IMG/VR virus record: IMGVR_UViG_3300006916_000313
Span: 1 to 26,738 of that record
Length of the DNA: 26,738 nt
Strand: one strand, 5' to 3'
Source: a virus
This document shows, piece by piece, positions 3,731 through 26,738 of the stretch. Position numbers and translations under genes: made by a program. The stretch's first letter is position 1. Each line of letters starts with the position of its first letter. A model generated the notes under the pieces. That model had not been told where the DNA came from and ran no database searches. It was given only the letters and a program-made list of their open reading frames with translations.

Positions 3731-3738
3731 TATAAATA
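3731..3738 (+). promoter_or_regulatory. T4-type late promoter, start codon at predicted +1
   Basis: A perfect TATAAATA octamer, followed by five bases (AAAAT) and then the ATG at 3744. In T4 the octamer spans -13 to -6, so transcription would begin on the A of this ATG. No ribosome binding site is present upstream. Confidence 0.75.
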
Positions 3739-3743
3739 AAAAT

Positions 3744-4043
3744 ATGGGACAGTATTCAGACAGAGTTGAAAGACAGAGACTTTTACTAGAAGCAGAAGAA
3801 TGGGCACAAGGCGTATCAGGTTTACATGCTCATAGTTTAAGTAGTATGTGGTATGATAACAGGCCACAAGATACTGCTGAAGGTAAAGGAGTAGTTGATA
3901 TACAATATAATAGTGGTCTCATAGAAAGAACCCTAGAAGATGGTTCAATGGTATATTTTGGTAAAAAACTAAAAGGCGATGAACTAATTCAAGAATATAC
4001 AAGAAAAACACAACCATCAGTCACTCAAACCTTTTTAAGATAA
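3744..4043 (+). CDS. Unknown late small protein, probably from a leaderless mRNA
   Basis: The product is 99 residues, charged and soluble, with no family recognised. The segment ending in GSMVYFGKKLKGDELIQ looks like a small beta unit followed by a helix. The start is set by the late octamer at 3731-3738 and the absence of any earlier ribosome binding site; the predicted transcript would begin at this ATG. It stands between the early chain and the tRNA cluster, and a separate host-type promoter begins just after its stop. Confidence 0.75.
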   Translation: MGQYSDRVERQRLLLEAEEWAQGVSGLHAHSLSSMWYDNRPQDTAEGKGVVDIQYNSGLIERTLEDGSMVYFGKKLKGDELIQEYTRKTQPSVTQTFLR

Positions 4044-4046
4044 TAC

Positions 4047-4074
4047 TTGACATGATAATAAAAGATGCTATACT
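4047..4074 (+). promoter_or_regulatory. Sigma70-type promoter with extended -10, abutting the next start codon
   Basis: TTGACA (4047-4052), a 16-bp spacer, TGC, then TATACT (4069-4074). The geometry matches the two early cassettes. The ATG of the next frame begins at 4075, directly after the -10, so transcripts from this promoter would start about 6 bases inside that frame. The promoter may mainly serve the tRNA cluster at 4398-4629. Confidence 0.75.
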
Positions 4075-4311
4075 ATGAAAAGTGAAAATATTGATTTAGT
4101 CGATATAAATTTAGTTTGTAAAAAACATGACTTAGACAGATTTTCACTAGTAGAGGTAAGTACTTTTATTGCTAGAAACAATGACATTACACCTGTAGAA
4201 GCTCTACAGAAAATGTTAGAAGTTGACGATTTAGAAACTTATCTCTCAGAACTAAAAAGTAAAATCCTTGACGCTGATTTAAGTAGGCGATTAAGGAAAA
4301 TGGATAAGTAG
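4075..4311 (+). CDS. Unknown small helical protein
   Basis: The product is 78 residues, mostly charged and predicted helical (for example TPVEALQKMLEVDDLETYL), with a lysine/arginine-rich end. No family is recognised. The start is uncertain: the ATG is immediately downstream of a strong -10 element and there is no ribosome binding site. It would be translated only from an upstream transcript such as the late one starting near 3744, or from an internal start. The stop overlaps the left arm of an inverted repeat at 4307. Confidence 0.55.
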   Translation: MKSENIDLVDINLVCKKHDLDRFSLVEVSTFIARNNDITPVEALQKMLEVDDLETYLSELKSKILDADLSRRLRKMDK

Positions 4312-4378
4312 GCCCGAGTGGTATTTCGTAAATTGGGTTAGATATAGTCTTATAAATTCCCTAGGTGTACTGCCTACT
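4307..4378 (+). repeat. tRNA-sized element with perfect 7-bp closing stem
   Basis: AGTAGGC (4307-4313) pairs perfectly with GCCTACT (4372-4378), closing a 72-base unit about the size of a tRNA. It contains CCGAGTGG, like the D-arm entry of class II tRNAs, and is followed by ATTCCA. I find no normal T-loop (TTCRA) and no clean anticodon arm, so I do not call it a tRNA. It lies just upstream of three real tRNAs and could be a decayed tRNA or a processing or termination structure. Confidence 0.35.
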
Positions 4379-4397
4379 ATTCCAACTTTTTAGATTT

Positions 4398-4472
4398 GCC
4401 GCATTCGTCTAGTGGTTAGGACACCGGGTTTTCATCTCGGCAACAGGAGTTCGATCCTCCTATGCGGTACCA
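4398..4472 (+). tRNA. tRNA-Glu (anticodon TTC), CCA encoded
   Basis: The acceptor GCCGCAT (4398-4404) pairs with ATGCGGT (4462-4468). The D-arm is GTC/GAC with a GTGGTT loop. The anticodon stem CCGGG/CTCGG (one mismatch) encloses TTTTCAT, giving anticodon TTC. The T-arm is GGAGT-TCGATCC-TCCT. The discriminator A and CCA are genomically encoded. It abuts the next tRNA with no spacer, so maturation needs processing between them. Confidence 0.95.
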
Positions 4473-4550
4473 GGTCTGGTAGTTCAGATTGGTTAGAACG
4501 CCGCCCTGTCACGGCGGAGGTCGAGGGTTCGAGTCCCTTCCAGATCGCCA
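4473..4550 (+). tRNA. tRNA-Asp (anticodon GTC), CCA encoded
   Basis: The acceptor GGTCTGG pairs with CCAGATC. The anticodon stem CCGCC/GGCGG encloses CTGTCAC, giving anticodon GTC. The T-arm is GAGGG-TTCGAGT-CCCTT. The discriminator is G, as expected for tRNA-Asp, followed by an encoded CCA. It begins on the base after the CCA of tRNA-Glu. Confidence 0.95.
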
Positions 4551-4552
4551 GT

Positions 4553-4629
4553 GGGTCTTTAGCTCAGTTGGTTAGAGCACCTCGTTTACACCGAGGGGGT
4601 CGCAAGTTCGAATCCTGCAAGACCCACCA
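4553..4629 (+). tRNA. tRNA-Val (anticodon TAC), CCA encoded
   Basis: The acceptor GGGTCTT pairs with AAGACCC. The D-arm is GCTC/GAGC. The anticodon stem CCTCG/CGAGG encloses TTTACAC, giving anticodon TAC. The T-arm is GCAAG-TTCGAAT-CCTGC, with discriminator A and an encoded CCA. It lies two bases after tRNA-Asp. Anticodons TTC and TAC read A-ending codons, which suit an AT-rich phage translated in a host with fewer such tRNAs. Confidence 0.95.
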
Positions 4630-4638
4630 TTTTTCTTT

Positions 4639-4646
4639 TATAAATA
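4639..4646 (+). promoter_or_regulatory. T4-type late promoter with short leader
   Basis: A perfect TATAAATA octamer between the tRNA cluster and the gene at 4662. The predicted +1 is 4652, giving a leader of about 10 bases that retains part of AGGAAAA as a ribosome binding site. It belongs to the non-leaderless class. Confidence 0.65.
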
Positions 4647-4661
4647 TATTAGGAAAATAAA

Positions 4662-5093
4662 ATGATCAGAGTTAATATTAAAGGCAGAATTGCTAAAAAG
4701 AAAAAAATTATAGAGTATATTGAAACAGCTCTAATAGGAATGATGCCCAGATTAAGACGAACTGTGGACATTGACTTAACAGTCTTAACAGAGTGTGATG
4801 AAAAAAATTATGCACTTTGTTGGGGCGATAAAAACGAAGTAGAAATTGAGTTAGCCAGACAAAGTGGCAGAAAAAAGTTTACATTAGACGAAATGATGTT
4901 AAACTTGGCTCATGAACTTGTTCATGCTAAACAATTTTTAAAAGGTGAACTTCATCCTACACTTAGTAAATGGAAGAAGTTTAAAAAAGATTATGCTAAC
5001 ACTCCCTATTTCAAACAACCCTGGGAGAAAGAAGCATATTTAATGGAAGATAACATTTTTAAAACATACTGGATAGATGGCAAAAATATATAA
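4662..5093 (+). CDS. Putative zinc metallopeptidase (HELVH, SprT-like)
   Basis: The product is 143 residues with the zincin motif HELVH at residues 84-88, in which two histidines would bind zinc and the glutamate would activate water. A downstream WEKEAY segment could supply the third ligand. This matches the small SprT-like metalloproteins common in phages. The substrate is unknown. The N-terminus is a basic helix, and there is no signal peptide, so action in the host cytoplasm is likely. The late octamer at 4639 and AGGA at 4651 support the start. The next small gene overlaps its last 17 bases. Confidence 0.7.
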   Translation: MIRVNIKGRIAKKKKIIEYIETALIGMMPRLRRTVDIDLTVLTECDEKNYALCWGDKNEVEIELARQSGRKKFTLDEMMLNLAHELVHAKQFLKGELHPTLSKWKKFKKDYANTPYFKQPWEKEAYLMEDNIFKTYWIDGKNI

Positions 5094-5232
5094 TAAAACA
5101 ACAATAACACCAACAAGAAAGGCTAGTTCTACTGGACAAGGCGGTAGAGGAAGAAGCACAAAGATTTCTTTATCTACAATGAACAAGCACAAAAAAAGGT
5201 CACATAAGAAATATAGAGGACAAGGTAGATAA
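5077..5232 (+). CDS. Small very basic protein (51 residues)
   Basis: An ATG at 5077 opens a 51-codon frame ending at TAA 5230-5232. The product carries TGQGGRGRSTKISLSTMNK and then HKKRSHKKYRGQGR, giving a strongly positive Gly/Arg/Lys-rich chain. I recall similar short proteins ending in KKYRGQG in marine T4-like phages, but not their role. The charge suggests nucleic acid binding. It overlaps the end of the metallopeptidase gene by 17 bases and is probably coupled to it. A stable hairpin follows. Confidence 0.7.
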   Translation: MAKIYNKTTITPTRKASSTGQGGRGRSTKISLSTMNKHKKRSHKKYRGQGR

Positions 5233-5280
5233 AAGTTTAAATTGGGCATGTTGTTCTCCTAATACTTCAATACCCAATCA

Positions 5281-5304
5281 CTCCGCAGTAGAAATACTGC
5301 GGAG
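5281..5304 (+). terminator. Perfect 10-bp hairpin with GAAA tetraloop
   Basis: CTCCGCAGTA (5281-5290) pairs perfectly with TACTGCGGAG (5295-5304) around GAAA, a stable GNRA tetraloop. No T tract follows (AACTTG), so it is a poor intrinsic terminator and may instead be a 3'-end protecting or processing structure for the preceding transcript. It ends 6 bases before the late promoter at 5310. Confidence 0.6.
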
Positions 5305-5309
5305 AACTT

Positions 5310-5317
5310 GATAAATA
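5310..5317 (+). promoter_or_regulatory. T4-type late promoter, start codon at predicted +1
   Basis: GATAAATA followed by five bases (TAGAT) and the ATG at 5323. By T4 geometry +1 falls on this ATG. There is no ribosome binding site; the only purine-rich sequence, GGAG, belongs to the hairpin 18 bases upstream. Confidence 0.72.
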
Positions 5318-5322
5318 TAGAT

Positions 5323-5913
5323 ATGAGTACTTATAATCCTTATAATAACTACATGACAACTGATGTAATTACTACATCACTCACAGAAGAATGGGTATGC
5401 GAGTTAGTAGAGCCCAAACATCAAGCACTTCATACTAGAGCAAATATTGATCCTTTTGGAACAGATATAGATTGGCAAGAAAAGGAAAAAGAAATGCTAC
5501 AACTGATGCATAATAAGTTTGGTATAGGTTTAGCCGCTCCACAGATAGGTTACAGTTATAATATGTTTGTTATGAATCATGAGCATTTAGGAGACATAGG
5601 TGTATATAGGCCTGAGATATTAGAGTACAGTGAAGAAACTTGTAGATATGAAGAAGGTTGTTTAAGTTTCCCTATGTTATATTTAGATGTAATCAGACCA
5701 GAAAAAATCAAAGTGAAATATTATAAATCAGATGGTGAAACACAGGTGGAGACCTGGATGGACGGCAGAGATGCCAGATGTTTCCAACATGAATTTGATC
5801 ATTTATATGGTGATTTATTTATAGACAAAGTGAGCGATTTAAAATTACAAAGAGCATTTAAAAAGAGAGAGAAGTTTTTTAAGAAATTAGAAAGACAAAT
5901 TAAAAATGCTTGA
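5323..5913 (+). CDS. def: Peptide deformylase
   Basis: This enzyme removes the N-formyl group from nascent proteins. All three family motifs are present: GIGLAAPQ (residues 67-74), EGCLS (111-115, metal ligand C113) and QHEFDH (155-160, ligands H156 and H160, catalytic E157). At 196 residues it is longer than most phage deformylases because of an N-terminal extension of about 25 residues. I set the start at 5323 because the late octamer at 5310-5317 predicts +1 there; a TTG at 5308 would lie before the transcript start. Marine phage deformylases are thought to sustain protein processing during infection. The next gene overlaps the last 8 bases. Confidence 0.93.
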   Translation: MSTYNPYNNYMTTDVITTSLTEEWVCELVEPKHQALHTRANIDPFGTDIDWQEKEKEMLQLMHNKFGIGLAAPQIGYSYNMFVMNHEHLGDIGVYRPEILEYSEETCRYEEGCLSFPMLYLDVIRPEKIKVKYYKSDGETQVETWMDGRDARCFQHEFDHLYGDLFIDKVSDLKLQRAFKKREKFFKKLERQIKNA

Positions 5914-6754
5914 TTATCCTTTTTGGGTAAATGATTTTGACAGAGTTAAAGATCACAGACTTACCCACCCAGAAGTAGCCAAAATATTTGAACAACCTGT
6001 AGCATTTTGGTATGGTGCTAAACGTAATAAAAATGCCTACGCAAAATTAAAAAAAAGCCTAAAAAGACTATTTAATCGTACAGCACCCAAACTACCTTAC
6101 TTTGTAATATACAACTTACCTAACAGAGACTTAGGGCATTACAGCAAAGGAGGAGCCTCTGACGCAACTGAATACTTATTGTTCTTACAAGAGTTTTGTG
6201 CTGGTATTAAAGGGCATAAACCAATAGTTATATTTGAACCAGATGCATTACCACATACTACTTTAATGGATAAAAAAGATGCTGAGTATCGTGTAAATCT
6301 TATTAAGGCAGGACTAGATATTATGGCAGAAGAGAGTGATGCTTATGTATATGTAGACATAGGTCACAGTAATTGGCTTAGTCCAGAACAAGCATCAGAG
6401 CTAATTTCTAGTGTATCTAACGCAGGTATAAGAGGGTTTAGTGTTAATGTAAGTAATTACAGAAGCACAGAAGAGAGCATGAAATGGGCTTTAAAGGTGT
6501 GTGAATACAACGAAGACTGGCATTTTATTATAGACACCAGCCGTAATGGCAATGGTCCACATGGTAATGACTGGTGCAATCCTCCTGGTAGACATGTAGG
6601 TAAAGTTCCTAGTTGCGATACAGGAGAGCCTAAATGCGATGCCTTTTTATGGGTAAAGATACCAGGTGAGTCTGACGGAAAAGGTAATGGTGGTCCTAGA
6701 GCTGGTAGGTTTTGGCCTGAAATGGGTGCAGAGTTAGTAAAAGATATTAACTAA
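5906..6754 (+). CDS. Glycoside hydrolase family 6 (cellulase-type) enzyme
   Basis: The order of conserved blocks is that of GH6 endoglucanases and cellobiohydrolases: YNLPNRD (compare YDLPDRD), VIFEPDAL, YVDIGHSNWL, GFSVNVSNY, FIIDTSRNG, NDWCNPPG and LWVKIPGESDG. The GH6 acidic residues appear as D75 (in RD), D113 (in EPD) and D257 (in ESDG), so inverting cleavage of beta-1,4-glucan-type linkages looks intact. The product is 282 residues, essentially one catalytic domain, with no signal peptide and no carbohydrate-binding module. Without export it would act in the cytoplasm, be released at lysis, or be carried on the virion. It is coupled to deformylase by an 8-base overlap and converges on the next gene, overlapping it by 8 bases. 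Confidence 0.85.
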   Translation: MLDYPFWVNDFDRVKDHRLTHPEVAKIFEQPVAFWYGAKRNKNAYAKLKKSLKRLFNRTAPKLPYFVIYNLPNRDLGHYSKGGASDATEYLLFLQEFCAGIKGHKPIVIFEPDALPHTTLMDKKDAEYRVNLIKAGLDIMAEESDAYVYVDIGHSNWLSPEQASELISSVSNAGIRGFSVNVSNYRSTEESMKWALKVCEYNEDWHFIIDTSRNGNGPHGNDWCNPPGRHVGKVPSCDTGEPKCDAFLWVKIPGESDGKGNGGPRAGRFWPEMGAELVKDIN

Positions 6755-7121: not shown

Positions 7122-7122
7122 C

Positions 7123-9411
7123 TTAACTACATCCACATCCTGAACATGCTTTAAGCACTATTCTTTCCTTTCCACACTTAGGGCAAGGCTCTGTTTGTTC
7201 TTTTTCTTTAATACCTGCTAGGTCTCGCATTCTTTGAATATCTTCGTCTACTTCAGGTTCACCATGGTCTTTCCAATCTGCATTGTCTACGGTATCTTCA
7301 GCATGTCTTTGAAGTATTTCATCTCTGTCATCATCCATGTGCAAGTTTAGGTCTCTGCTAATCTCACTCATTTCTTGATCAAGTTCTTCCATTGATAAAC
7401 CACATGCTTCTGCGTATGCTTCTTCGCCACCTTTTGCATAAGCATCCATTAATTCATTGTATGCCTCTTCTTCACGACTTTGTTCTGCATCAATGTCAAA
7501 ACTTTCATCATACTCTTTAGATGCCATTACAGGATTTTGTTGTCCCATTTCATTATCAAATTGTACCATAATTTGATGAAGTTTATCTGCATATTTTCTA
7601 TGGCTCATCATGTCTTTAACTTTAGTCATTAAAGGTTGCATTACTTTTTGTAAGTAAGGAGCCATATTGCTATCACCTGCGGCAGTATCTAATGCTTTTT
7701 GCATAATTGATGCGGCATCTTTACCACCAATGTCTTGTCTCATTCTGTTATAAACAGATTGGTCTACTTTAGCATCTTCTTCATCTTCAGGATCTAGCAT
7801 ACCAGTGATTCCAGTTTCGGCATCTCTTGGATCTTTAGGATCTTGCTCTGCTTCTGCTTCACTCATTTCATCTGCAGGCTCTGGAGCATTAGTTTCTGAA
7901 TCTATTTTGGCTTTCATTTTTTCTAAACCAAATTTTTCAATCATCTCTATGTAACTTTGAATAACATCATCGGCCATCATTTCATCAGCATCGTCTGTGA
8001 TATTTGTTTTCATGCCATTTAAAAGTTCCAAGCATTCTTTTTCATCATCACAATCCATTATACCTTGTTCAGCATCAGTCATTGCTATATCAAAAGCATT
8101 ACCGCCTTCTGCAATTTCTTTTTCGCCTAGTGTTTTAAGATATTTTCTATATGCATGTTCACTTGCTTCTTCGTCTTTCCAAGTATCGCCACCTTCTTTT
8201 TTATTTTCATGTCTCCAATCTGATAAACTTAGAGGTTCGCCATTATCATATACAATCATGCCTTTAGGACCTTTTTTAGTTCCTTCTTCAACGCCGTAGT
8301 CTGATTTTATATCTGATAAGTCTAAACTTTCTTTTTCAAAATCATCTTCTTCAGGTTCATATTTACTATCATCACCTGCTTCTAAATCCATATCTGATAT
8401 AGCCTTTTTAACAAGTTTTAAGGTAAATTGTTTGTCCTCATCCTTCATTCCTGCTAAACCATTTTCAGGCATTTTGTCTATCAATTTGTTTAATTTTTCA
8501 CTTATTGATAGCCCATTTTCGTCTGGCATTATTCTTTCATTAATTTCTGCTAGTAGGTTTGCAGGAGATTTAAGTAATGCTTGGACAAATTGTTCTTTTT
8601 TAACTTCAGGGTCATTTGCATCTGATCCTTCTGGGAATCTGTTTGCTATACTCATCGTTGCTGAGCTTTTTGTGACTGGAGCAAATTTAATATCCTTAAT
8701 ACTTAAAGGAGTATCAAACTCTACTGGAGCATCTTCGCGGATATCTAATCCTGCTAATTTTAAAATTGTGTTTAAATCTTCGTTCATTTTTTCACCTACT
8801 ATATTTTTATAAACTAATTCAAAAACAGATTCGTTATATTGTTTGAAGTATCTGTTAAATACTTTTTTAGCACTCTCTTTATCAGATGCGTCTAAAAACT
8901 GTTTTCTGAATGCACTAGCACTCAATATTTCGTTTTTTTCGTCGTCTCGTTCTGTTCCAACGACCTGTATGTATCCTCTGTCCATCATGGATTTTGGATT
9001 TGTTCTATATGTATTTATCTTCTGAAAGTAATATGGATCACCGTTTGGTTTAATACTTAGCCCAGTTTTCTTATCCATGTTATTAAACTTAAATCTGGGG
9101 TCATTTTCCATATCTTTTTCACCCACAGCAAAGAAAACTGCTGTATTATCTGGGTCTTCTATGTAAGGTGCTAAATCATCAGGGTGATAATTACGTCTTA
9201 CCTGTAACATTCTGTTTGGGTCTACACCCTGAGCGGTTGCAATCAGTTGTTTTTCTTTGAAGTTAAATGGTGATTTACCAGGTTCTGTTTTGTCTGATGA
9301 GGTTATATAAACATCAGCATCAGGATTATCTGCTACAAGTTTGTTAAAAACTGTGGCATGATGAGCCAGCATAGGCTGGAAACGTCCTGGATATATAATA
9401 ACCTTCTTCAT
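7123..9411 (-). CDS. Nucleotidyltransferase-domain fusion protein with LAG[IL] peptides and zinc ribbon
   Basis: Residues 1-200 form a cytidylyltransferase/NMN adenylyltransferase-type domain, with YPGRFQPM at 7-14 and SASAFR at 164-169 (compare ISSTxxR). The family HxGH is altered to LAHH (15-18): the second histidine remains, the first does not. After residue 208 the sequence restarts as MNEDLNTILKLAGL (209-222), like the start of the adjacent gene. A very long acidic helical region of over 500 residues follows, then DEDIQRMRDLAGI (722-734) and a zinc ribbon with C743, C746, C756, C759 and C761. The GATAAATA octamer lies 6 bases before the ATG with no ribosome binding site. Late expression suggests a structural or packaged role; nucleotide transfer is unproven. 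Confidence 0.75.
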   Translation of the reverse strand: MKKVIIYPGRFQPMLAHHATVFNKLVADNPDADVYITSSDKTEPGKSPFNFKEKQLIATAQGVDPNRMLQVRRNYHPDDLAPYIEDPDNTAVFFAVGEKDMENDPRFKFNNMDKKTGLSIKPNGDPYYFQKINTYRTNPKSMMDRGYIQVVGTERDDEKNEILSASAFRKQFLDASDKESAKKVFNRYFKQYNESVFELVYKNIVGEKMNEDLNTILKLAGLDIREDAPVEFDTPLSIKDIKFAPVTKSSATMSIANRFPEGSDANDPEVKKEQFVQALLKSPANLLAEINERIMPDENGLSISEKLNKLIDKMPENGLAGMKDEDKQFTLKLVKKAISDMDLEAGDDSKYEPEEDDFEKESLDLSDIKSDYGVEEGTKKGPKGMIVYDNGEPLSLSDWRHENKKEGGDTWKDEEASEHAYRKYLKTLGEKEIAEGGNAFDIAMTDAEQGIMDCDDEKECLELLNGMKTNITDDADEMMADDVIQSYIEMIEKFGLEKMKAKIDSETNAPEPADEMSEAEAEQDPKDPRDAETGITGMLDPEDEEDAKVDQSVYNRMRQDIGGKDAASIMQKALDTAAGDSNMAPYLQKVMQPLMTKVKDMMSHRKYADKLHQIMVQFDNEMGQQNPVMASKEYDESFDIDAEQSREEEAYNELMDAYAKGGEEAYAEACGLSMEELDQEMSEISRDLNLHMDDDRDEILQRHAEDTVDNADWKDHGEPEVDEDIQRMRDLAGIKEKEQTEPCPKCGKERIVLKACSGCGCS

Positions 9412-9417
9412 ATGTAC

Positions 9418-9425
9418 TATTTATC
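9418..9425 (-). promoter_or_regulatory. T4-type late promoter, near-leaderless start
   Basis: On the minus strand, GATAAATA (9425 to 9418) is followed by six bases (GTACAT) and the ATG at 9411, so +1 is predicted one base before the start codon. The octamer overlaps the TGA stop of the upstream dehydrogenase gene. No ribosome binding site is present. Confidence 0.72.
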
Positions 9426-11177: not shown

Positions 11178-11208
11178 ACATATACTTATTTAATTTATGT
11201 TGTGATGA

Positions 11209-12924
11209 CTACCACTTTCGGCAAGACCAATAACGTGCTTTTGTCTTTGGTCCTGGATTATCGCAATTATGTCTTGCTCTGAAACTCTTTCTGGCTTTAG
11301 GATTGCTCTTTCTGATACGCATTGTTTTACGTTTTGCTGATGTTCCGCCATGCCCAAAGTTTACTTTTTTAACATTTCCTGTTTTAGGATCTTTTACATA
11401 CACTTTAAACTTTTTAACATCACCACGCATAGGCTTGTTTAGTTTTACTTTACGACCTTGATATTCTGCTTCAAATGTATTTTCTTCGTCTATGCTGTAG
11501 CCTAATATACCAAACTCTTCTGTAAAGTCTTGATCTTCATCTAATGTAATTTCTTCGTATGACTTAGTACCACCAAAGCCTGGATCTTTAGTATTTTCTG
11601 CAAGTCTTACATCATAAATCATCTTGGCAGTTAGTTTAATTACATCAGCAATTTCTGGTTTTTCACTTTCTAATTCAGCATAAAGTTCATGTGGTGTCAT
11701 TTCTGACCAACGATTTTCATCTCCCAATGCTTTGGCAAGCATTTTGGAAACCATTGCTTCATTACTGTCTTTATCTTTATCTTCAACAACACCATCTTTT
11801 GCTTCTATTTGTGATGTGTCTAATTGTGCCATAACATCATCTATAACACTACTGCTATCTATAACATCTAATACACTGCCACTAGCAAAGTCGCCTATAC
11901 GTTGACCACCGTGTACCATATTTGAGTTTACACAATCTTCAACATCTAATCTTTCTAATGCATTATAAATAGCAGTTTCCAAAGCATCTATGCTTTCAAA
12001 TTCGTCTTCACTATTTAAAAACATATCTAGTAGTTTTTCAACACAACCATTAGCGATAATACTTCTTTCTTCGCCTTCGTTTATGCTCTCACTTGTAAGT
12101 CCTGCTTTTTTCATACCTTTAGCAATTAGATCACTTCTTTGAGCAACACCCATAAATGGATAATCTGCTTTCATATACTGATACATTTGTCTGGGATCGT
12201 CCATTTGTTTAACAGCTCTAGAGATCTGATCAATTACTGCTTCATCACCAGGATAATTGTCTTGCGACTTCTGTTTTTCTGCTTTACGCTCGTCGTGTCT
12301 AATAATATCTACCCAACTAGCACCAACCATTTCACCTTCGTCACATCCGTACATTCCCCAACCATCACATTCGAAAGCAGAGTCTTCTATCTCTTCGCCA
12401 TCATCGTCATATTCTGGGTATTCGGCATCTTGATATCCTGTGCCTGAACAATTAGGACATACGCCTTGCATAACATCTGATTTTTCGTGACTAGCACGAC
12501 AATCGTCTAACGCATCAAGTAATTCATCGTGTGCTTCTTGTCTTTCTTCAGCATCATAAAAGTTGTCTGGAGAACCAATCATATCATCACTTACACTGAT
12601 GGCTTCTACCATTATACTTTCCACAATCTCAAAGTCACTGTCTGATGTACCACTGAACCTACTAGCACCAGCACTTGCTTTACCCTGACGGTATGCTAAG
12701 TGTCTTGCTTTGGTTTTAGCATCATTTTCGTGAGAGGCAAGTATTTTTTCCTTAAACCCTTTAGGGCCTTTGACTATGTAATACTTATATTCGTTTAATT
12801 TAGATTCTGATTTTTTGGCTTTGCCTTTTTTGATTTGTTTGCCTAAACAACCTGACTCACTAGGCTCTTGAAACCCTGAACCAGTTTTAGTATTAATGTT
12901 TTCAAAAAAGTTATTTAATTTCAT
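11209..12924 (-). CDS. Large late protein with DnaJ-like zinc motif and basic RARHNCDNPGPK tail
   Basis: The product is 571 residues from the ATG at 12924. I prefer this to an ATG at 12969 because the late octamer at 12930-12937 puts +1 on 12924. A lysine-rich N-terminus is followed by CPNCSGTGY (from about residue 156) and CDGWGMYGC, spaced like a DnaJ-type cysteine-rich zinc finger. The middle is acidic and helical. The C-terminal ~60 residues are very basic and end RARHNCDNPGPK...ARYWSCRKW, a tail I recall on otherwise different marine phage proteins. No enzymatic motif is visible. Late expression suggests a virion, assembly or packaged protein. Confidence 0.7.
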   Translation of the reverse strand: MKLNNFFENINTKTGSGFQEPSESGCLGKQIKKGKAKKSESKLNEYKYYIVKGPKGFKEKILASHENDAKTKARHLAYRQGKASAGASRFSGTSDSDFEIVESIMVEAISVSDDMIGSPDNFYDAEERQEAHDELLDALDDCRASHEKSDVMQGVCPNCSGTGYQDAEYPEYDDDGEEIEDSAFECDGWGMYGCDEGEMVGASWVDIIRHDERKAEKQKSQDNYPGDEAVIDQISRAVKQMDDPRQMYQYMKADYPFMGVAQRSDLIAKGMKKAGLTSESINEGEERSIIANGCVEKLLDMFLNSEDEFESIDALETAIYNALERLDVEDCVNSNMVHGGQRIGDFASGSVLDVIDSSSVIDDVMAQLDTSQIEAKDGVVEDKDKDSNEAMVSKMLAKALGDENRWSEMTPHELYAELESEKPEIADVIKLTAKMIYDVRLAENTKDPGFGGTKSYEEITLDEDQDFTEEFGILGYSIDEENTFEAEYQGRKVKLNKPMRGDVKKFKVYVKDPKTGNVKKVNFGHGGTSAKRKTMRIRKSNPKARKSFRARHNCDNPGPKTKARYWSCRKW

Positions 12925-12929
12925 ATAAC

Positions 12930-12937
12930 TATTTATC
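12930..12937 (-). promoter_or_regulatory. T4-type late promoter, start codon at predicted +1
   Basis: On the minus strand, GATAAATA is followed by five bases (GTTAT) and the ATG at 12924, which lands on +1 by T4 geometry. The upstream sequence CTAAATTT offers no ribosome binding site. Confidence 0.73.
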
Positions 12938-13769: not shown

Positions 13770-13925
13770 TTAGTCCTCTTTTTTCCAGATAGTCCATGCA
13801 CCGTAGGCAATCATGCCATATGCAATAAGATTTACAGGGGTAAGTATCATTAAGATACCGCCAACAATTAGGACACCACCGTCCCAACTGGTTCTTTCTT
13901 TTAGTCTTGCTTTTATAAAGTCCAT
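13770..13925 (-). CDS. Small membrane protein, holin candidate
   Basis: AGGAG (about 13932-13936) lies 6-7 bases before an ATG at 13925 that opens 51 codons. The product has a charged N-terminus (MDFIKARLKERTSW) and then a hydrophobic stretch of about 27 residues (GGVLIVGGILMILTPVNLI and AYGMIAYGAW), enough for one or two membrane helices. It ends with the charged KKED. It sits directly upstream of the lysozyme behind its own late octamer, the expected place for a holin, but size and position are the only evidence. A 72-residue cysteine-rich reading of the same DNA (13747-13965) lacks a ribosome binding site and is rejected. Confidence 0.68.
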   Translation of the reverse strand: MDFIKARLKERTSWDGGVLIVGGILMILTPVNLIAYGMIAYGAWTIWKKED

Positions 13926-13949
13926 AATATTCTCCTATTTTATATATTA

Positions 13950-13957
13950 TATTTATT
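13950..13957 (-). promoter_or_regulatory. T4-type late promoter (AATAAATA) for the lysis pair
   Basis: On the minus strand, AATAAATA (13957 to 13950) precedes the small membrane/lysozyme pair. The predicted +1 near 13944 leaves a 19-base leader carrying AGGAG. It overlaps the end of the upstream gene. The first base differs from the TATAAATA and GATAAATA forms, so confidence is lower. Confidence 0.5.
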
Positions 13958-17805: not shown

Positions 17806-17817
17806 GTTATACTCCTA

Positions 17818-18420
17818 TTAACTGATGTTACCAAGATCACTGTTACTATTTTGTGATTGACTAATTGTACCGTAATCTGTTACTGTAACACTATCACTTG
17901 CTAATACTATACTAATGGTGGCATTACCGGCACTTGCGGCACCGTTAACCACATTGTAACTTAATACACCGTCTGAAGTATATTCATATTGATATTGTGA
18001 ATGATATTGAGCCGCTTTAGTTACATCAACGTCACCAGATCTTATAAATCTGCTAGAGTTTCCTGAGTCTCCAACTTCCACATAATCACCTGCACCACCA
18101 CTTGACCAAGGACTAGGAACATCAACTGTGACACTCACTATCCTTGAACCTGATGTAATACTGGCAATGTTGGCAGAACCTGAATTATAGTCAACATCTA
18201 CTGTAACGTGTTGTAATAAGTTTGCTTCAGCACCATCTAACTGAGCTTTTGTAACGGCCTGTGTGCTAACTGTAGCATTTGCAACTGCTATCTTTTGTAA
18301 AGCATCACCGGACGTGTAAAAACCGATTGCACTGGCATTACCGGCAATGTATGAACCTTGTTTTCCAAGTTCCACATTGGCGCCAACACCTGCTAGATTA
18401 TATTTTTTAACTGTAGCCAT
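17818..18420 (-). CDS. Fibre-like structural protein, paralogue 1
   Basis: The product is 200 residues and is first in the minus-strand late operon. It shares KKYNLAGVGANVELGKQG, VTKAQLDG, YNSGSANI and GAASAGNATISI with the downstream paralogue, pointing to tandem duplication. The composition is that of a beta-rich fibre or appendage protein with no catalytic motif. The ATG has GGAGA five bases upstream and a late octamer at 18457-18464, giving a normal leader of about 30 bases. The last ~25 residues, rich in S, N and Q, are unique to this copy. Confidence 0.72.
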   Translation of the reverse strand: MATVKKYNLAGVGANVELGKQGSYIAGNASAIGFYTSGDALQKIAVANATVSTQAVTKAQLDGAEANLLQHVTVDVDYNSGSANIASITSGSRIVSVTVDVPSPWSSGGAGDYVEVGDSGNSSRFIRSGDVDVTKAAQYHSQYQYEYTSDGVLSYNVVNGAASAGNATISIVLASDSVTVTDYGTISQSQNSNSDLGNIS

Positions 18421-18456
18421 TTAAATCTCCAGAGATTAGATTGTAATTACAAATAG

Positions 18457-18464
18457 TATTTATC
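18457..18464 (-). promoter_or_regulatory. T4-type late promoter for the minus-strand structural operon
   Basis: On the minus strand, GATAAATA (18464 to 18457) gives a predicted +1 near 18451 and a 31-base leader with GGAGA. It probably drives the operon from 18420 down to the next late promoter. Its first base lies 6 bp from the -35 of the divergent host-type promoter at 18470. Confidence 0.75.
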
Positions 18465-18469
18465 TGTTC

Positions 18470-18497
18470 TTGACTATTTTGGCTTTTGTGTTATACT
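18470..18497 (+). promoter_or_regulatory. Sigma70-type promoter with extended -10, start codon at predicted +1
   Basis: TTGACT (18470-18475), a 16-bp spacer, TGT, then TATACT (18492-18497). The ATG at 18504 is seven bases after the -10, the normal position of +1, and no ribosome binding site is present between them. The transcript would therefore be leaderless or nearly so. Confidence 0.75.
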
Positions 18498-18503
18498 TCC
18501 AGT

Positions 18504-18764
18504 ATGGAAGAACAATTCAGAATCTTTAAGACAACCAATAAGGGCAAAGTACAGTACTCTGTACATAAAGTCTACATATCAGAAGATGGTATGACTATTG
18601 CAGATTGGGATAGGGAACCTGTGAAATTAGAGTTTGACAATTTGTTACAATTAAATTATACTATTATAAAGAGTTTGAATGCTTCTACACTTGATGTGAT
18701 GCAGGAAGAAACAGATTCAAACTCTTTGCAAAAAGCAATGGACATATTTAAAAACAATGTTTGA
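18504..18764 (+). CDS. Unknown small protein upstream of uvsE
   Basis: The product is 86 residues and soluble: a strand-rich first half (FRIFKTTNKGKVQYSVHKVYI) and a helical second half. No family is recognised. I start at the ATG at 18504 because the host-type promoter's +1 falls there; an earlier ATG at 18486 lies inside the promoter. It overlaps the UV endonuclease gene by 8 bases and may be made mainly to couple its translation, or the two may act together in repair. Confidence 0.65.
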   Translation: MEEQFRIFKTTNKGKVQYSVHKVYISEDGMTIADWDREPVKLEFDNLLQLNYTIIKSLNASTLDVMQEETDSNSLQKAMDIFKNNV

Positions 18765-19794: not shown

Positions 19795-19798
19795 TTGC

Positions 19799-20725: not shown

Positions 20726-20732
20726 AAAGGCA

Positions 20733-20740
20733 TATAAATA
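20733..20740 (+). promoter_or_regulatory. T4-type late promoter, start codon at predicted +1
   Basis: A perfect TATAAATA followed by five bases (TCAAC) and the ATG at 20746, exactly the T4 +1 position. The only purine-rich sequence upstream (AAGG) is 17 bases from the ATG and outside the predicted transcript. Confidence 0.75.
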
Positions 20741-20745
20741 TCAAC

Positions 20746-22089
20746 ATGGACGACAAACTCAATAATATTCTCGAGTCTATAAAAGAATACATAGACGAAA
20801 AACAAGCAAATAAAACCTGGGAGCCTGGCAAGGACTTTGTAAACTATGCTGGTCCTTTGTTTAGCAGTGATGAATATGTCAGTGCCGCAGAAACATTACT
20901 GGACGGTTGGTTAGTGATGGGAGATAAGAGTATTAAGTTTGAAAGAAAGTTTCCAAAGTATTACGGTAAAAAACACGGAGTACTTACAAATTCTGGTAGT
21001 AGTGCTAACTTATTGATGATGGCATCTTTAACCAGCAAAAGAGGACATAACTTTGGTAAAGGCACAAAAGTTTTAATGCCTATAGCAGGTTTCCCTACAA
21101 CACTAAATCCAACATTACAGGTAGGATTTGAACCTGTATTTGTAGACATAGAATTAGACACACTAAATTTAGATTTAGATCAATGCGAAGAGATATTAAA
21201 AAACAATCCTGACATAAAAGTAATTACATTTGCTCATGTATTAGGTAATCCACCAAACATGGACCAACTAATGGAATTAGTAGACAAATACAATTTAGTA
21301 TTACTGGAAGATTGTTGTGATGCTTTGGGTAGTACATACAAAGACAAACCATTAGGTAGTTTTGGAGAAATGGCTAGTTGTAGTTTTTATCCAGCACATC
21401 ATATGACAATGGGAGAGGGTGGTTTTGTTGCTTGTAATACATATGAGCAAGAAGTAATTACTAGAAGTTTTAGAGAATGGGGGAGAGGTTGTTATTGCGT
21501 AGGCCCAGAAGCAAATAAACTTAAAAACGGTACTTGTAAAAAACGTTTTAGTTGCTGGATACCCACAATGCCTGACCAAACATTTGATCATAAATTTGTT
21601 TATGACGAAATTGGTTACAATTTAAAACCAATAGATATCCAGAGTGCTATGGGCCTTGAGCAACTTAAGAAACTAGATGAGATACATGCTCTGAGAAGAA
21701 GAAACTATAAATTACTTTTTGAAATTTATGAGAAGTATGAGAAATATTTTATACTGCCTAGACCCAGAGAACATTCAGACCCAAGTTGGTTTGCTTTCCC
21801 ACTTACTATTAGAAAAGATGCGCCTTTTACTAGAACACAATATGTAGACTTTTTAGAAGATAATAAAATACAAACAAGACCTTATTTTGCTGGTAATATT
21901 ATGTTACAACCAGCATATAGTCATTTAATGGATCCACAACAAGCAAAAGATAATTTCCCTAATGCTACCTTTACACTAACAAATACTTTCTTCCATGGAG
22001 CAAGTGCTGTTATAACACCAGAGCAAATAGCATGGATTAAAAAGGTTGCCGATGATTTTTTATCACAATATGAAAACAGAATTGTATGA
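20746..22089 (+). CDS. rfbH: RfbH-like PLP/[2Fe-2S] sugar 3-dehydratase
   Basis: The product is 447 residues of the DegT/DnrJ/EryC1 fold, but the PLP lysine is replaced by histidine: SFYPAHHMTMGEGG has H218 where aminotransferases have Lys. This is the hallmark of RfbH/E1, which removes the C3 hydroxyl of CDP-4-keto-6-deoxyglucose, and of the related ColD. RfbH/E1 also has an iron-sulfur motif recalled as C-x57-C-x-C-x7-C. Here C191, C249 and C251 keep the x57 and x1 spacing, and C264 follows after x12. That favours RfbH over ColD. The E1 partner reductase and the CDP-glucose 4,6-dehydratase are not in the window. The late octamer at 20733 makes it a late gene. Confidence 0.88.
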   Translation: MDDKLNNILESIKEYIDEKQANKTWEPGKDFVNYAGPLFSSDEYVSAAETLLDGWLVMGDKSIKFERKFPKYYGKKHGVLTNSGSSANLLMMASLTSKRGHNFGKGTKVLMPIAGFPTTLNPTLQVGFEPVFVDIELDTLNLDLDQCEEILKNNPDIKVITFAHVLGNPPNMDQLMELVDKYNLVLLEDCCDALGSTYKDKPLGSFGEMASCSFYPAHHMTMGEGGFVACNTYEQEVITRSFREWGRGCYCVGPEANKLKNGTCKKRFSCWIPTMPDQTFDHKFVYDEIGYNLKPIDIQSAMGLEQLKKLDEIHALRRRNYKLLFEIYEKYEKYFILPRPREHSDPSWFAFPLTIRKDAPFTRTQYVDFLEDNKIQTRPYFAGNIMLQPAYSHLMDPQQAKDNFPNATFTLTNTFFHGASAVITPEQIAWIKKVADDFLSQYENRIV

Positions 22090-23640: not shown

Positions 23641-23660
23641 GTTATATAGGTTGTTTTTCA

Positions 23661-23683
23661 AAGAAAAGGGCGGATAACCGCCC
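23661..23683 (-). terminator. Intrinsic terminator of the minus-strand membrane gene
   Basis: GGGCGG (23668-23673) pairs with CCGCCC (23678-23683) around a four-base loop. Read on the minus strand the hairpin is followed by TTTTCTT, a good intrinsic terminator 20 bases after the stop of the gene at 23704-23934. The + strand side lacks a T tract. Confidence 0.8.
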
Positions 23684-23703
23684 TAATCTATTGTAAATGT
23701 ATG

Positions 23704-23934: not shown

Positions 23935-24062
23935 ATCAACCTCCTTTGAATTTACCAAAATTAGCAAATTCAGATAATATTTAAGTGCCAGTAATCACTT
24001 ACTTAACAACTCACTTAATGTTAAATACAGTTATTAATATAGAAAAACTAGAGATAAAACAC

Positions 24063-24356
24063 ATGTTATTAGATAAACCTATAAAGAAAAACGATATAAT
24101 TTCACTAAAATTGCTGACTGGCGAAGAAGTCATAGCACAATTTCAGGAAGAAAAAGATAATAATCTTATTGTATCCAAAGCAAGTATTGTGGCGGCAAAC
24201 CCTCAAGGTGGACTAGGATTAGTACCCTGGATGATGAGCTCTATGCCAGATAAAATCAGCATAAATAAAGATACAGTAGTTACATTTGGTCAAACAGCAG
24301 AAGCCATCGCAGACAAATTCATAGAAGCGACTACAAACATTACACTGGCAAAATAA
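24063..24356 (+). CDS. Sm/Hfq-like small phage protein
   Basis: The product is 97 residues. DIISLKLLTGEEVIAQFQEE followed by further strands (NLIVSKASIVAANPQ, and later ISINKDTVVTF) gives the strand order of the Sm-like small beta barrel, with a C-terminal helix. I recall equivalent Sm-like proteins in marine T4-like phages, but no demonstrated function; RNA binding is inferred from the fold. The start is uncertain: ATGs at 24018 and 24063 are both in frame and neither has a good ribosome binding site. I chose 24063 because KLLTGEE then falls near the N-terminus as usual. Confidence 0.6.
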   Translation: MLLDKPIKKNDIISLKLLTGEEVIAQFQEEKDNNLIVSKASIVAANPQGGLGLVPWMMSSMPDKISINKDTVVTFGQTAEAIADKFIEATTNITLAK

Positions 24357-24371
24357 CACACATTTCTTTAC

Positions 24372-24399
24372 TTGACAAAATATAGTATTTTGTTATAAT
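24372..24399 (+). promoter_or_regulatory. Sigma70-type promoter with perfect extended -10
   Basis: TTGACA (24372-24377), a 16-bp spacer, then TGTTATAAT with TATAAT at 24394-24399. The predicted +1 is near 24406, leaving a leader of about 13 bases before the cell-wall hydrolase gene. It has the same architecture as the promoters at 332 and 925. Confidence 0.85.
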
Positions 24400-24418
24400 A
24401 TATGGACATTTAGAGATT

Positions 24419-24973
24419 ATGATGTTAAAACGTGGAATATTTCTAACCTTATTTTCTGTTAGTTTACTATCAGAAGATGTTGATGCTAATATCCAAACAG
24501 TAGATTTATCTATGACAGATGATACTATGTGTTTAGCTCTTAACATGTACCATGAAGCCAGAAGTGAAAGCACAGCAGGTATGTGGGCAGTTAGTGACGT
24601 CGTAATTAACAGAGTAAAAAGCTCATCATTTCCAAATACTATCTGCGAAGTTATAAAACAAGGACCTACAAGAGAGAGTTGGAAGACTTCTAGATTCCCA
24701 GATTTACCAGACTCAGAAAGAATTTTTTATCCTATCAAAAGGCAATGTCAATTCAGTTGGTATTGTGATGGAATAAGTGATATGCCTACAGAACTTTTTA
24801 GTTGGTACAGAGCATTAGAACTTGCCACACTTATGTTAAAGTTTGACAGAGGTATAGGTATCACAGATGGTGCTGACCATTATCATGCAGATTATATTAA
24901 TCCAAAATGGAATAATAGTATGTTGCTCACAGCCCAAATAGATAACCACGTTTTTTATAAAGATATCAGATAA
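24419..24973 (+). CDS. SleB/CwlJ-type cell wall hydrolase with signal peptide
   Basis: The product is 184 residues. The N-terminus MMLKRGIFLTLFSVSLLSEDVDA is a plausible signal peptide with cleavage near residue 23. The Hydrolase_2 domain follows, with CLALNMYHEARSES carrying the presumed catalytic E46, then VVINRV, CQFSWYCDG and GADHYHADYINPKW, all family hallmarks. It should cleave peptidoglycan in the periplasm. The host-type promoter at 24372-24399 suggests expression well before lysis, so wall remodelling or superinfection control is as likely as lysis. The start could be the first or second Met. It is separate from the T4-type lysozyme at 13299-13766. Confidence 0.88.
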   Translation: MMLKRGIFLTLFSVSLLSEDVDANIQTVDLSMTDDTMCLALNMYHEARSESTAGMWAVSDVVINRVKSSSFPNTICEVIKQGPTRESWKTSRFPDLPDSERIFYPIKRQCQFSWYCDGISDMPTELFSWYRALELATLMLKFDRGIGITDGADHYHADYINPKWNNSMLLTAQIDNHVFYKDIR

Positions 24974-24990
24974 ATATATACTGTTATAAT
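24969..24990 (+). promoter_or_regulatory. Overlapping late octamer and extended -10 promoter
   Basis: GATAAATA (24969-24976) predicts a late +1 at 24982, and TGTTATAAT (-10 at 24985-24990) predicts a host-type +1 near 24997. The matching -35 is poor (ATATCA at 24963-24968). Both would give a leader containing TAGGAG (24999-25004) before the ATG at 25012. Dual early and late expression of the nuclease is possible. Confidence 0.55.
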
Positions 24991-25011
24991 ACACACATTA
25001 GGAGTAACAGT

Positions 25012-25485
25012 ATGTATGAATATAGATGTAAAGTCTTGAAAATAGTTGATGGTGACACAGTAGATGTTGATATCGATTTGGGATTTGGTATAGTGTTAAA
25101 AAGCGAACGTGTCAGAGTCATGGGCATAGATACACCTGAGTCAAGAACTAGGGACAAAGTAGAAAAACAATTTGGCTTAGCCGCAAAGAAAAGGCTAAAA
25201 GAAATGCTTGATAACAAATCAGGTCCAATCCTAAAGACACAGATCAATAAGAAAGGCGAGGACATGAAAGGTAAGTTTGGCCGTATATTAGGCGACTTTA
25301 CTGTTTATCATGCACCAACTGATTCTTGGAGAATGGTAACCGAGATTATGGTTGAGGAAGGTCATGCTGTGGCATACTTTGGTGGTAGCAAAGATGAAGT
25401 TCAAGCAAAACATATGGCAAACAGAAGTAAATTAATTCGTGAAGGATTAGTTAAAATGACTGAAGCAGAAGCAGGACTTGTCTAA
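25012..25485 (+). CDS. Staphylococcal-nuclease-like thermonuclease
   Basis: The product is 157 residues with the SNase fold signature: VDGDT with the calcium-binding Asp, VRVMGIDTPESR with the Asp/Glu and Arg active-site residues, and GKFGRILGDF with the second Arg. Calcium-dependent cleavage of DNA or RNA is expected. There is no signal peptide, unlike the secreted staphylococcal enzyme, so it acts in the host cytoplasm. Host DNA breakdown for nucleotide recycling is a plausible role. TAGGAG lies seven bases before the ATG. Confidence 0.9.
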   Translation: MYEYRCKVLKIVDGDTVDVDIDLGFGIVLKSERVRVMGIDTPESRTRDKVEKQFGLAAKKRLKEMLDNKSGPILKTQINKKGEDMKGKFGRILGDFTVYHAPTDSWRMVTEIMVEEGHAVAYFGGSKDEVQAKHMANRSKLIREGLVKMTEAEAGLV

Positions 25486-25502
25486 AAAACCAATAATTCT
25501 AC

Positions 25503-25530
25503 TTGACAATACCTAAATAGAGTATATAAT
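25503..25530 (+). promoter_or_regulatory. Sigma70-type promoter
   Basis: TTGACA (25503-25508), a 16-bp spacer and TATAAT (25525-25530). It has perfect hexamers and the same spacing as the other host-type promoters, but lacks the TGn extension (GTA instead). The leader carries GAGG before the ATG at 25557. Confidence 0.85.
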
Positions 25531-25556
25531 ATAACTTTATACATCGAGGTATTGTA

Positions 25557-26042
25557 ATGAAACGTTTTTATTCAGGTAAAACATATACCCACGCAACAGG
25601 TCATAGTTGTGCATTTAGACAATGGAGAGCAGATAGTCACTGTAATTTAATTCATGGCTATGCACTACAGTTTGAGTTTACATTTGGTTGTGATGAATTA
25701 GATGATCGCAACTGGGCTGTGGACTTTGGTGGTTTAAAAGAACTAAAACAATGGTTAAAAGAAATGTTTGACCATACTTATTTGGTAGCCGAGGACGATC
25801 CTGAGATGGATACAGTTCAATTGTTACAAGACAAAGGTCTTATTGACATGAGAGTTGTAAAAGCAACAGGGTGTGAACGGTTTGCCGAAATGGCCTTTGA
25901 CAAAGCAGATGAAATTGTTAAGGATATCAGCAATGGCAGATGCTGGGTACAAAAGGTCACTGTAAGAGAACATGAAGCCAATAGTGCAACATGCGAACTT
26001 GCAGACACTCAGAAGATTCGATTCGTAGATTCTGAGAAATAA
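25557..26042 (+). CDS. queD: QueD/6-pyruvoyl-tetrahydropterin synthase family protein
   Basis: The product is 161 residues. GHSCAFRQW carries H16, SHCNLIHGY carries the catalytic C29 and H33, and the later FDHTYL and VREHEANSATC supply the conserved Asp-His and Glu, as in 6-carboxytetrahydropterin synthase. In phages this enzyme feeds 7-deazaguanine synthesis for DNA modification or queuosine. Oddly, the zinc motif HGH reads HGY here (Y35), so one metal ligand of the family is replaced. No other 7-deazaguanine gene is in the window. It has its own promoter upstream and a hairpin terminator downstream, making it monocistronic. Confidence 0.85.
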   Translation: MKRFYSGKTYTHATGHSCAFRQWRADSHCNLIHGYALQFEFTFGCDELDDRNWAVDFGGLKELKQWLKEMFDHTYLVAEDDPEMDTVQLLQDKGLIDMRVVKATGCERFAEMAFDKADEIVKDISNGRCWVQKVTVREHEANSATCELADTQKIRFVDSEK

Positions 26043-26080
26043 CGAAGAACGATAAATGATGAACAAGAAGTTTAGAATGA

Positions 26081-26115
26081 GGGCAGTATAGATATCCTAC
26101 TGCCCTTCACTTTTA
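26081..26115 (+). terminator. Intrinsic terminator after queD
   Basis: GGGCAGTA (26081-26088) pairs perfectly with TACTGCCC (26098-26105) around a nine-base loop, followed by TTCACTTTT. It lies 39 bases after the queD-like stop and before the late promoter of the next gene. Confidence 0.8.
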
Positions 26116-26136
26116 AGAAATCCCACCTAAAATATA

Positions 26137-26144
26137 GATAAATA
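26137..26144 (+). promoter_or_regulatory. T4-type late promoter, near-leaderless start
   Basis: GATAAATA followed by seven bases (CTAGACT) and the ATG at 26152. The predicted +1 at 26150 leaves a two-base leader, and no ribosome binding site is present. Confidence 0.68.
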
Positions 26145-26151
26145 CTAGACT

Positions 26152-26738
26152 ATGTGGTTTGGTCTATTAACTTTAATAACCTCTATCGCTATAGCCGGCG
26201 TAGCCGCCTGGTTTAGTATAGCAGGACTTATGATATTCTTTGGTGGTATGCCATTGAGTATCGCCATTATGGCTGGAACATTAGAAGTAGGTAAACTACT
26301 AACAGCCAGTTGGTTATATCGTTATTGGAACGAAACTTCCCTCGCACTCAAATCATATCTTACCACTGCCGTAATTGTATTGATGTTAATTACATCTGCT
26401 GGTATCTACGGCTATCTTTCCAAAGCCGCTAGTGATGTGTCTAGTGATGGTGCTGTGGCATTTGCAGAAGTAGATAGACTAGACGGCCAAATTGCCAGAG
26501 AAGAAAACAAAATAGATATACTGGAAGACAGGATACTTAGTATAGGTGGAACTGTTGATGTAAGTGAAAGCATAACGCAACAGGAAACAATCAGAGATGG
26601 TGCATGGGCAAGAGTACAAGGCGATATAGATTATGCACAAGGACAAATAGACAGACTCAGAGACCAACTAGCAGTACTAGATAAAGCAGTAAACGATTTA
26701 AGAAACAAAGGTGTTGAAGTAGTTGTATTAGATGAAGG
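26152..26738 (+). CDS. Membrane/coiled-coil protein, 5' part (runs off the window)
   Basis: The frame is open from the ATG at 26152 to the last base (195 codons). Three hydrophobic stretches lie in the first ~95 residues: about 3-31 (LLTLITSIAIAGVAAWFSI onwards), 33-50 (PLSIAIMAGTLEVGKL) and 70-90 (LTTAVIVLMLITSAGIYGY). A charged helical region follows with heptad-like spacing (EVDRLDGQIAREENKIDILE, later QGQIDRLRDQLAVLDK), suggesting a coiled coil. I recall similar proteins in marine T4-like phages, but no function. The start is set by the late octamer at 26137. An antisense frame at 26479-26667 is a shadow. Confidence 0.78.
   Translation, partial: MWFGLLTLITSIAIAGVAAWFSIAGLMIFFGGMPLSIAIMAGTLEVGKLLTASWLYRYWNETSLALKSYLTTAVIVLMLITSAGIYGYLSKAASDVSSDGAVAFAEVDRLDGQIAREENKIDILEDRILSIGGTVDVSESITQQETIRDGAWARVQGDIDYAQGQIDRLRDQLAVLDKAVNDLRNKGVEVVVLDE

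Follow-up and report, generated by a model that had tools for sequence, protein, structure and literature searches.

Where does transcription start when a phage late promoter stands only a few nucleotides before a start codon? This question is raised by a fragment of a marine phage of 26,738 nt (IMG/VR record IMGVR_UViG_3300006916_000313, positions 1 to 26,738; the window below means this whole stretch), in which octamers of the T4 late-promoter type directly precede the ATG of six genes. A reading of the sequence alone had predicted leaderless late mRNAs for these genes. We propose, with a probability of about 0.86, that the octamers are gp55-dependent T4-type late promoters fused to the start codon, which would give leaderless mRNAs, and that this is a general mode of expression in the marine pelagimyophage-type branch.

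T4-type late promoters, which are used by gp55/gp33/gp45 together with host RNA polymerase, consist of the octamer TATAAATA, or NATAAATA in cyanophages. In T4 the octamer lies roughly one turn of the helix ahead of the start site and is not accompanied by a −35 element (PMC2988020). An octamer that spans −13 to −6 and is separated from the ATG by 5 nt places +1 on the A of the ATG. The number of nucleotides between the 3' end of a promoter element and the start codon is designated d.

A 57-kb contig (G001) is near-identical to the window, and a 130-kb contig (G024) is related to it. Both come from divergent phages of the T4-like type, have relatives in Pelagibacter phage HTVC008M and share genes with HTVC008M, Syn9 and T4. 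The T4-like genes of G024 include terminase, sheath, UvsX, UvsW and NrdAB. Core genes with HTVC008M relatives place these phages in the pelagimyophage-type T4-like group.

Late-type octamers in the window

The six octamers next to start codons are as follows.

3731-3746, plus strand: late-type octamer (3731-3738) in TATAAATA-AAAAT-ATG, 5-nt gap; starts a 99-aa unknown protein (3744-4043)
5310-5325, plus strand: octamer (5310-5317) in GATAAATA-TAGAT-ATG, 5-nt gap; starts peptide deformylase (5323-5913)
9409-9425, minus strand: octamer (9418-9425) in GATAAATA-GTACAT-ATG, 6-nt gap; starts a cytidyltransferase-like fusion protein (7123-9411)
12922-12937, minus strand: octamer (12930-12937) in GATAAATA-GTTAT-ATG, 5-nt gap; starts a 571-aa protein of unknown function (11209-12924)
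20733-20748, plus strand: octamer (20733-20740) in TATAAATA-TCAAC-ATG, 5-nt gap; starts a DegT/DnrJ/EryC1 aminotransferase (RfbH-like; 20746-22089)
26137-26154, plus strand: octamer (26137-26144) in GATAAATA-CTAGACT-ATG, 7-nt gap; starts a membrane protein (26152 to the window end)

All six stand where the sequence-only reading had placed them, with gaps of 5, 5, 6, 5, 5 and 7 nt in coordinate order. As it had also reported, they are not followed by a Shine-Dalgarno (SD) sequence: no SD motif is located between the predicted +1 and the ATG, that is, in the possible leader. The AAGG at gene 20746 lies upstream of the octamer. By homology, the six products are a peptide deformylase, a DegT/DnrJ/EryC1 aminotransferase, a cytidyltransferase-like fusion with a weak PHROG match, and three others to which no function was assigned, the membrane protein among them. 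The earlier statement that most other genes carry an SD holds. Specifically, an SD-like match of 4 nt or more was seen at about 20 of the 32 other starts examined, a count that includes two coordinates that were not true starts; this is a majority but not nearly all.

Four other octamers belong to an SD-led class.

4639-4664, plus strand: octamer, 15-nt gap, AGGA before ATG 4662
13923-13957, minus strand: octamer, 24-nt gap, AGGAG before ATG 13925
18418-18464, minus strand: octamer, 36-nt gap, GGAG before ATG 18420
24969-25014, plus strand: octamer, 35-nt gap, AGGAG before ATG 25012

This second class with longer leaders, which had likewise been noticed from the sequence, is real, and each of its members has an SD downstream of the octamer. 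A cluster of tRNA-Glu, tRNA-Asp and tRNA-Val is located at 4398-4629, directly ahead of the octamer at 4639.

The six close octamers could in principle reflect chance in an A/T-rich genome, combined with selection by the sequence-only reading, and the total number of octamers in the window is indeed ordinary (16, versus 12.3 by shuffling). However, 6 of the 16 are positioned 5-9 nt ahead of the start ATG in open reading frames (ORFs) of at least 60 aa, versus 0.19 expected from ten anagram octamers. The position-specific P is ~6e-8 for the window alone and 1e-9 for HTVC008M, and the arrangement is conserved in divergent homologues. Chance clustering is ruled out by the shuffles and anagram controls, and the tallies below leave this explanation refuted.

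Octamer-to-ATG distances in related DNA and cultured phages

Using the six window genes as bait, we retrieved 3.8 Mb of related viral loci and tallied the distance from KATAAATA to the ATG of ORFs of at least 80 codons. From d=0 to d=9 the counts are 0, 0, 1, 3, 22, 114, 16, 7, 29 and 4, so that 114 of 774 distinct KATAAATA contexts have an ATG at d=5. The sequence-only reading had made its proposal depend on a peak at 5-7 nt, and related DNA has a very sharp one at 5 nt. A second, broad hump is observed at d=18-40, where SD motifs are strong. The 5-nt peak without SD beside this hump with strong SD agrees with the earlier suggestion that two late classes coexist. Anagram control octamers give 0-3 at d=5, with the exception of ATAAATAK, a one-base shift of the motif itself. 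When proteins are clustered, 56 families have d=5, versus about 2-14 families at other distances, which indicates that the peak is not one gene repeated.

Because the six genes served as bait, whole-record searches and counts in cultured genomes matter as further checks. Across 35 whole records, KATAAATAN5ATG has ~150 matches, versus 5 for the reversed pattern. At d=5-9, HTVC008M has 12 genes versus 1.05 expected, the cultured Pelagibacter phage Mosig has 7 versus 0.87, G024 has 25 versus 1.6, and G001 has 7 versus 0.2. The 12 HTVC008M starts match the depositors' annotation. Wrong start codons were ruled out as a cause of the peak, since homologues share their N-terminus at the same Met.

The pattern is restricted to one lineage. 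T4, KVP40, Syn9 and Cr30 have no octamer at d=5-9, and S-PM2 and P-TIM40 have one each, which is the chance level. SAR11 host DNA (~350 kb, 125 octamers) shows no distance peak, which rules out a general A/T-rich effect. In T4, KVP40 and three cyanophages the octamer lies ~10-40 nt from the ATG, mostly 20-38 nt, and 5-9 nt occurs only by chance; here, unlike in T4, ~1/3-2/3 of the gene-preceding octamers put the predicted +1 on the ATG or within 4 nt of it. GATAAATA outnumbers TATAAATA in the metagenomic set. The start codons at d=5 are ATG in 56 families, GTG in 4 and TTG in 2. The SD-led class has a similar ratio, so the family tally gives no sign that the leaderless class favours ATG over GTG/TTG more than that class does.

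Sequence context of the close octamers

At d=5 the base before the ATG is T or C in 97% of 174 contexts, versus 59% at d of at least 15. Transcription start sites usually have a pyrimidine at −1 and a purine at +1, and the 97% is therefore as expected if +1 is the A of the ATG. In T4's own SD-led late promoters, the sixth base downstream of the octamer is a purine in 73%. The left edge of the distance peak is sharp, as it would be if the RNA had to contain the ATG. An SD match of 4 nt or more occurs in 20% of cases at d=5, versus 80% at d of at least 20.

The elements themselves are of the T4 late type, with TATAAATA or a one-base variant of it at the −10 position. The 201 promoters at d=5 have no upstream consensus and no conserved −35 element, with TTGAC or TGACA in 3%. 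In these respects they resemble T4 late promoters, with the same octamer core, no −35, no upstream conservation and a purine favoured at the sixth base downstream (PMC2988020, PMC2984593).

Stable hairpins occur in the 50 nt upstream of 17% of leaderless octamers, versus 7% of long-leader octamers. In several cases, such as HTVC008M 6280 and 75559, Mosig gp2, L065 and L198, a strong intrinsic terminator ends directly before the octamer, so that a leader would have hardly any space. Two hairpins precede close octamers in the window.

5281-5304: hairpin CTCCGCAGTA-GAAA-TACTGCGGAG, just upstream of the 5310 octamer; 53-nt fold of −18.9 kcal/mol
26081-26105: hairpin GGGCAGTA...TACTGCCC with a T-rich stretch after it, 31 nt ahead of the octamer at 26137; fold of −15 kcal/mol

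The first hairpin is also present in the homologous L004 and probably insulates the 5310 octamer from read-through.

These features bear on the possibility that the octamers are real late promoters of minor transcripts, that translation proceeds mainly from read-through mRNA by upstream coupling, and that the short distance is a by-product of tight packing. Several of the genes do begin 10-25 nt behind the stop codon of the upstream gene. However, packing gives no single exact distance with a pyrimidine before the ATG, insulating hairpins or terminators precede several of the octamers, and the equally dense genomes of T4 and cyanophages lack the pattern. We consider this account highly improbable.

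Conservation and switching between two architectures

For five of the six close-octamer genes in the window, the arrangement is conserved in part or in full. The deformylase family has 14 members at d=5, the cytidyltransferase-like fusion (9411) has d=6 in L104, L105, L108 and L109, and the aminotransferase (20746) has d=5 in 8 of 8 distinct upstream sequences with a complete start. The membrane-protein family of 26152 has ~45 divergent homologues, most of which retain the octamer at d=5-9 although their flanks differ; the element is GATAAATA, in a few cases CTAAATA or GTAAATA.

Other homologues of the 26152 gene (L223, L240, L243 and L244) have the octamer 26-35 nt upstream, mostly with an SD. 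Sixteen families hold both architectures, with the same octamer either at d=5-9 without SD or at d=19-36, often with SD. An element that functions equally well at either distance, with an SD at 30 nt and with none at 5 nt, is a promoter and not a ribosome signal.

Early promoters with the same geometry

The predicted leaderless arrangement extends beyond late promoters to early sigma-70-type ones, which the sequence-only reading did not mention. Promoters were scanned as TTGACA with at least 5/6 matches, a 15-18 nt spacer, and TATAAT or TATACT. In the window, gene 18504 has such a promoter at d=6.

18470-18506, plus strand: sigma-70-type promoter TTGACT-16-TATACT followed by TCCAGT-ATG; gene 18504-18764, with 14 family members at d=6

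A leaderless early transcript is predicted for this gene. Its promoter arrangement is conserved in L077-L083, and further families are found in L108 and others. Within the same phage group, the distance from the −10 hexamer to the ATG is 6 nt in 26 families, 7 nt in 9, and 1-5 nt in 0-2. The early class has a pyrimidine before the ATG in 90% and an SD in 10% at the 6-nt geometry, versus an SD in 84% at d of at least 19. The same scan finds none in T4, KVP40 and cyanophages, and no peak in the 350-kb SAR11 host sample.

The hexamer ends at −7 and the octamer at −6, so gaps of 6 nt and 5 nt both put +1 on the A of the ATG. That two different elements would each place +1 on this same base is the strongest single argument for leaderless transcripts.

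This argument also bears on the reading of the close octamer as a translation signal, either an A/T-rich unstructured region or a weak ribosome contact, in an mRNA that starts further upstream. The octamer does occupy the usual SD position, −13 to −6 from the ATG, and A/T-rich, unstructured starts are known to aid translation without SD. However, these octamers also stand 18-40 nt from the ATG before a normal SD, where they prefer the same first base, and anagrams of equal composition show no peak. Moreover, the two promoter elements peak at two distances, terminators end directly before some octamers, and neither T4 and cyanophages nor ~350 kb of SAR11 host DNA have the peak. A translation signal is thus very unlikely indeed.

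Candidate sigma factors

gp55 homologues are encoded by HTVC008M and contigs G021-G023, and in divergent form by L117-L120, all of which carry close octamers. In L119 (6601-7032, minus strand), as in L117, L118 and L120, a short divergent gp55 gene (144 aa) is followed by a gp47-like gene. L117-L120 also share the C-terminal domain of the window's 12924 protein.

Alternatively, the octamers could be read as −10 elements by the main host sigma factor instead of a gp55-type sigma, with the same leaderless geometry but timing that is not late. In favour of this, TATAAATA is similar to a −10 element, the contigs nearest to the window show no gp55, and the true sigma-70 promoters of these phages are predicted to be leaderless too. 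On the other hand, the first base of the octamer is G more often than T, the −35 element is missing as described above, and the same octamers are present in HTVC008M and L117-L120, which encode gp55. Taken together, we regard recognition by host sigma as very unlikely, and gp55 would be the factor that recognizes the octamers in the window phage.

Proposed mechanism and points against it

We propose that the start site of a T4-type late promoter became fused to the start codon. The 5' end of the RNA would then be the A of the ATG, and gaps of 6-9 nt would leave leaders of at most 4 nt. Translation would then depend on recognition of the 5'-terminal AUG and not on SD pairing. These phages retain a second late class with the octamer 18-40 nt from the ATG and a strong SD, and some of their early promoters of the host-sigma type, exactly 6 nt from the ATG, would again have +1 on the A. 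Consistent with this proposal, the inference of leaderless transcripts made in the sequence-only reading is supported by the peak at 5 nt and its left edge, the pyrimidine before the ATG, the loss of SD, the abutting terminators, the switching within families and the contrast between lineages.

Several observations weigh against this proposal. Enrichment is weak in the cultured phage Melnitz (3 versus 0.61 expected at d=5-9). Homologues of gene 3744 are mostly SD-led and lack the octamer, and only L177 has d=5, so the leaderless arrangement is not conserved there. Two cases misfit the simple geometry. One 19-member family (GATAAATA-AGAG-ATG; L043, L045, L036 and related MPTENT/MSNDTI proteins) has d=4, at which the usual +1 would be the T of the ATG. 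In the window, a strong early promoter at 4047-4077 (TTGACA-16-TATACT) has its −10 directly before ATG 4075 (d=0); seven families have this arrangement, which would place the usual +1 within the ORF. Searches for gp55 in the window, G001 and G024 gave none, but these are incomplete fragments that lack other replication genes too. Finally, many of these genes are located inside head-to-tail clusters, where read-through mRNAs with long 5' ends may add expression.

bS21 and the kinds of genes concerned

The genomes of HTVC008M, Mosig and Melnitz encode the ribosomal protein bS21, as do most of the contigs that show the leaderless pattern; T4, KVP40 and the cyanophages tested lack it. In the close relatives of the window, its gene is located at G001:31870-32025 (~29.4 kb in window numbering, just outside the window) and at G024:96626-96778. 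The association is imperfect: G019 and G020 carry bS21 without any octamer at d=5, and the fragment G021 shows the reverse. bS21 of HTVC008M enters E. coli ribosomes, and such ribosomes made ~5% of normal GFP in vitro (PMC6375957). Salicola phage SCTP-2 (W12), a 440-kb jumbo phage, encodes bS21 (192508-192666) and a homologue of the 26152 membrane protein, and has no clear enrichment of d=5 octamers.

Among the predicted leaderless genes of HTVC008M are those for the DNA end protector gp2, for gp25 and a baseplate protein resembling gp48, for the tape measure, for gp13 (d=8) and for CsgF, whereas the major capsid, sheath and tube genes have a strong SD and no octamer nearby. This suggests that leaderless genes may encode low-copy products and SD-led genes high-copy products in this phage. 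A wider scheme, which we rate as unlikely, is that the phages shift much of their expression to leaderless mRNAs and re-tool the host ribosome. In such a scheme, bS21 would favour mRNAs with a 5'-terminal AUG over SD-led host mRNAs, with low-copy baseplate, connector and accessory genes leaderless and high-copy capsid, sheath and tube genes SD-led. The role of bS21 here is an idea, and its link to leaderless mRNAs is a correlation within one lineage.

Comparison with known systems

Leaderless mRNA is known elsewhere. The pattern described here belongs to a whole phage group that includes cultured pelagimyophages, and so reaches beyond what was claimed for the window. A literature search that covered few subscription papers found no description of late mRNAs without leaders in T4-like phages or pelagiphages.

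The closest parallel to the early class is the "−10 region adjacent to ORF" of Deinococcus-Thermus, in which the −10 lies ~6-7 nt from the ORF and leaderless genes occur alongside SD-led ones (PMC12340547). Those are cellular bacteria using their main sigma factor, whereas the present case concerns phages and mostly a phage-type late element. In Lactococcus cremoris, leaders are either absent or longer than ~14 nt (PMC10986495), and a similar gap at 4-14 nt is seen here, although in phages and not in a Gram-positive host chromosome. Thermus phage phiYS40 likewise relies on leaderless mRNAs, with IF2 up and IF3 down, as far as the work cited in PMC3594737 describes it. The phiYS40 host itself uses leaderless mRNAs, whereas the SAR11 DNA sampled here shows no such peak. 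We know of no T4-type late octamer in phiYS40. Phage bS21, as described for HTVC008M and relatives (PMC6375957, PMC9723584), is common to most contigs with the leaderless pattern, but some that carry it lack the pattern.

A survey of pelagimyophages applied cyanophage methods to late-promoter prediction without success (PMC7029224), to which the fusion of promoters to start codons may have contributed. From the distances, promoters, start codons and leaderless genes can be called by a simple rule in the genomes of pelagimyophages and their kin, which infect some of the ocean's most numerous bacteria. The pattern also suggests that loss of the leader can occur in a classic promoter system, and offers a concrete hypothesis for why these phages carry bS21. 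How leaderless mRNAs compete in SD-using proteobacteria is a long-standing question that can now be tested in a cultured phage-host pair.

A neighbouring gene in the window

The end of the deformylase gene is overlapped by a gene for a glycoside hydrolase family 6 protein (5906-6754; Pfam, E 1e-49), which is unusual phage cargo.

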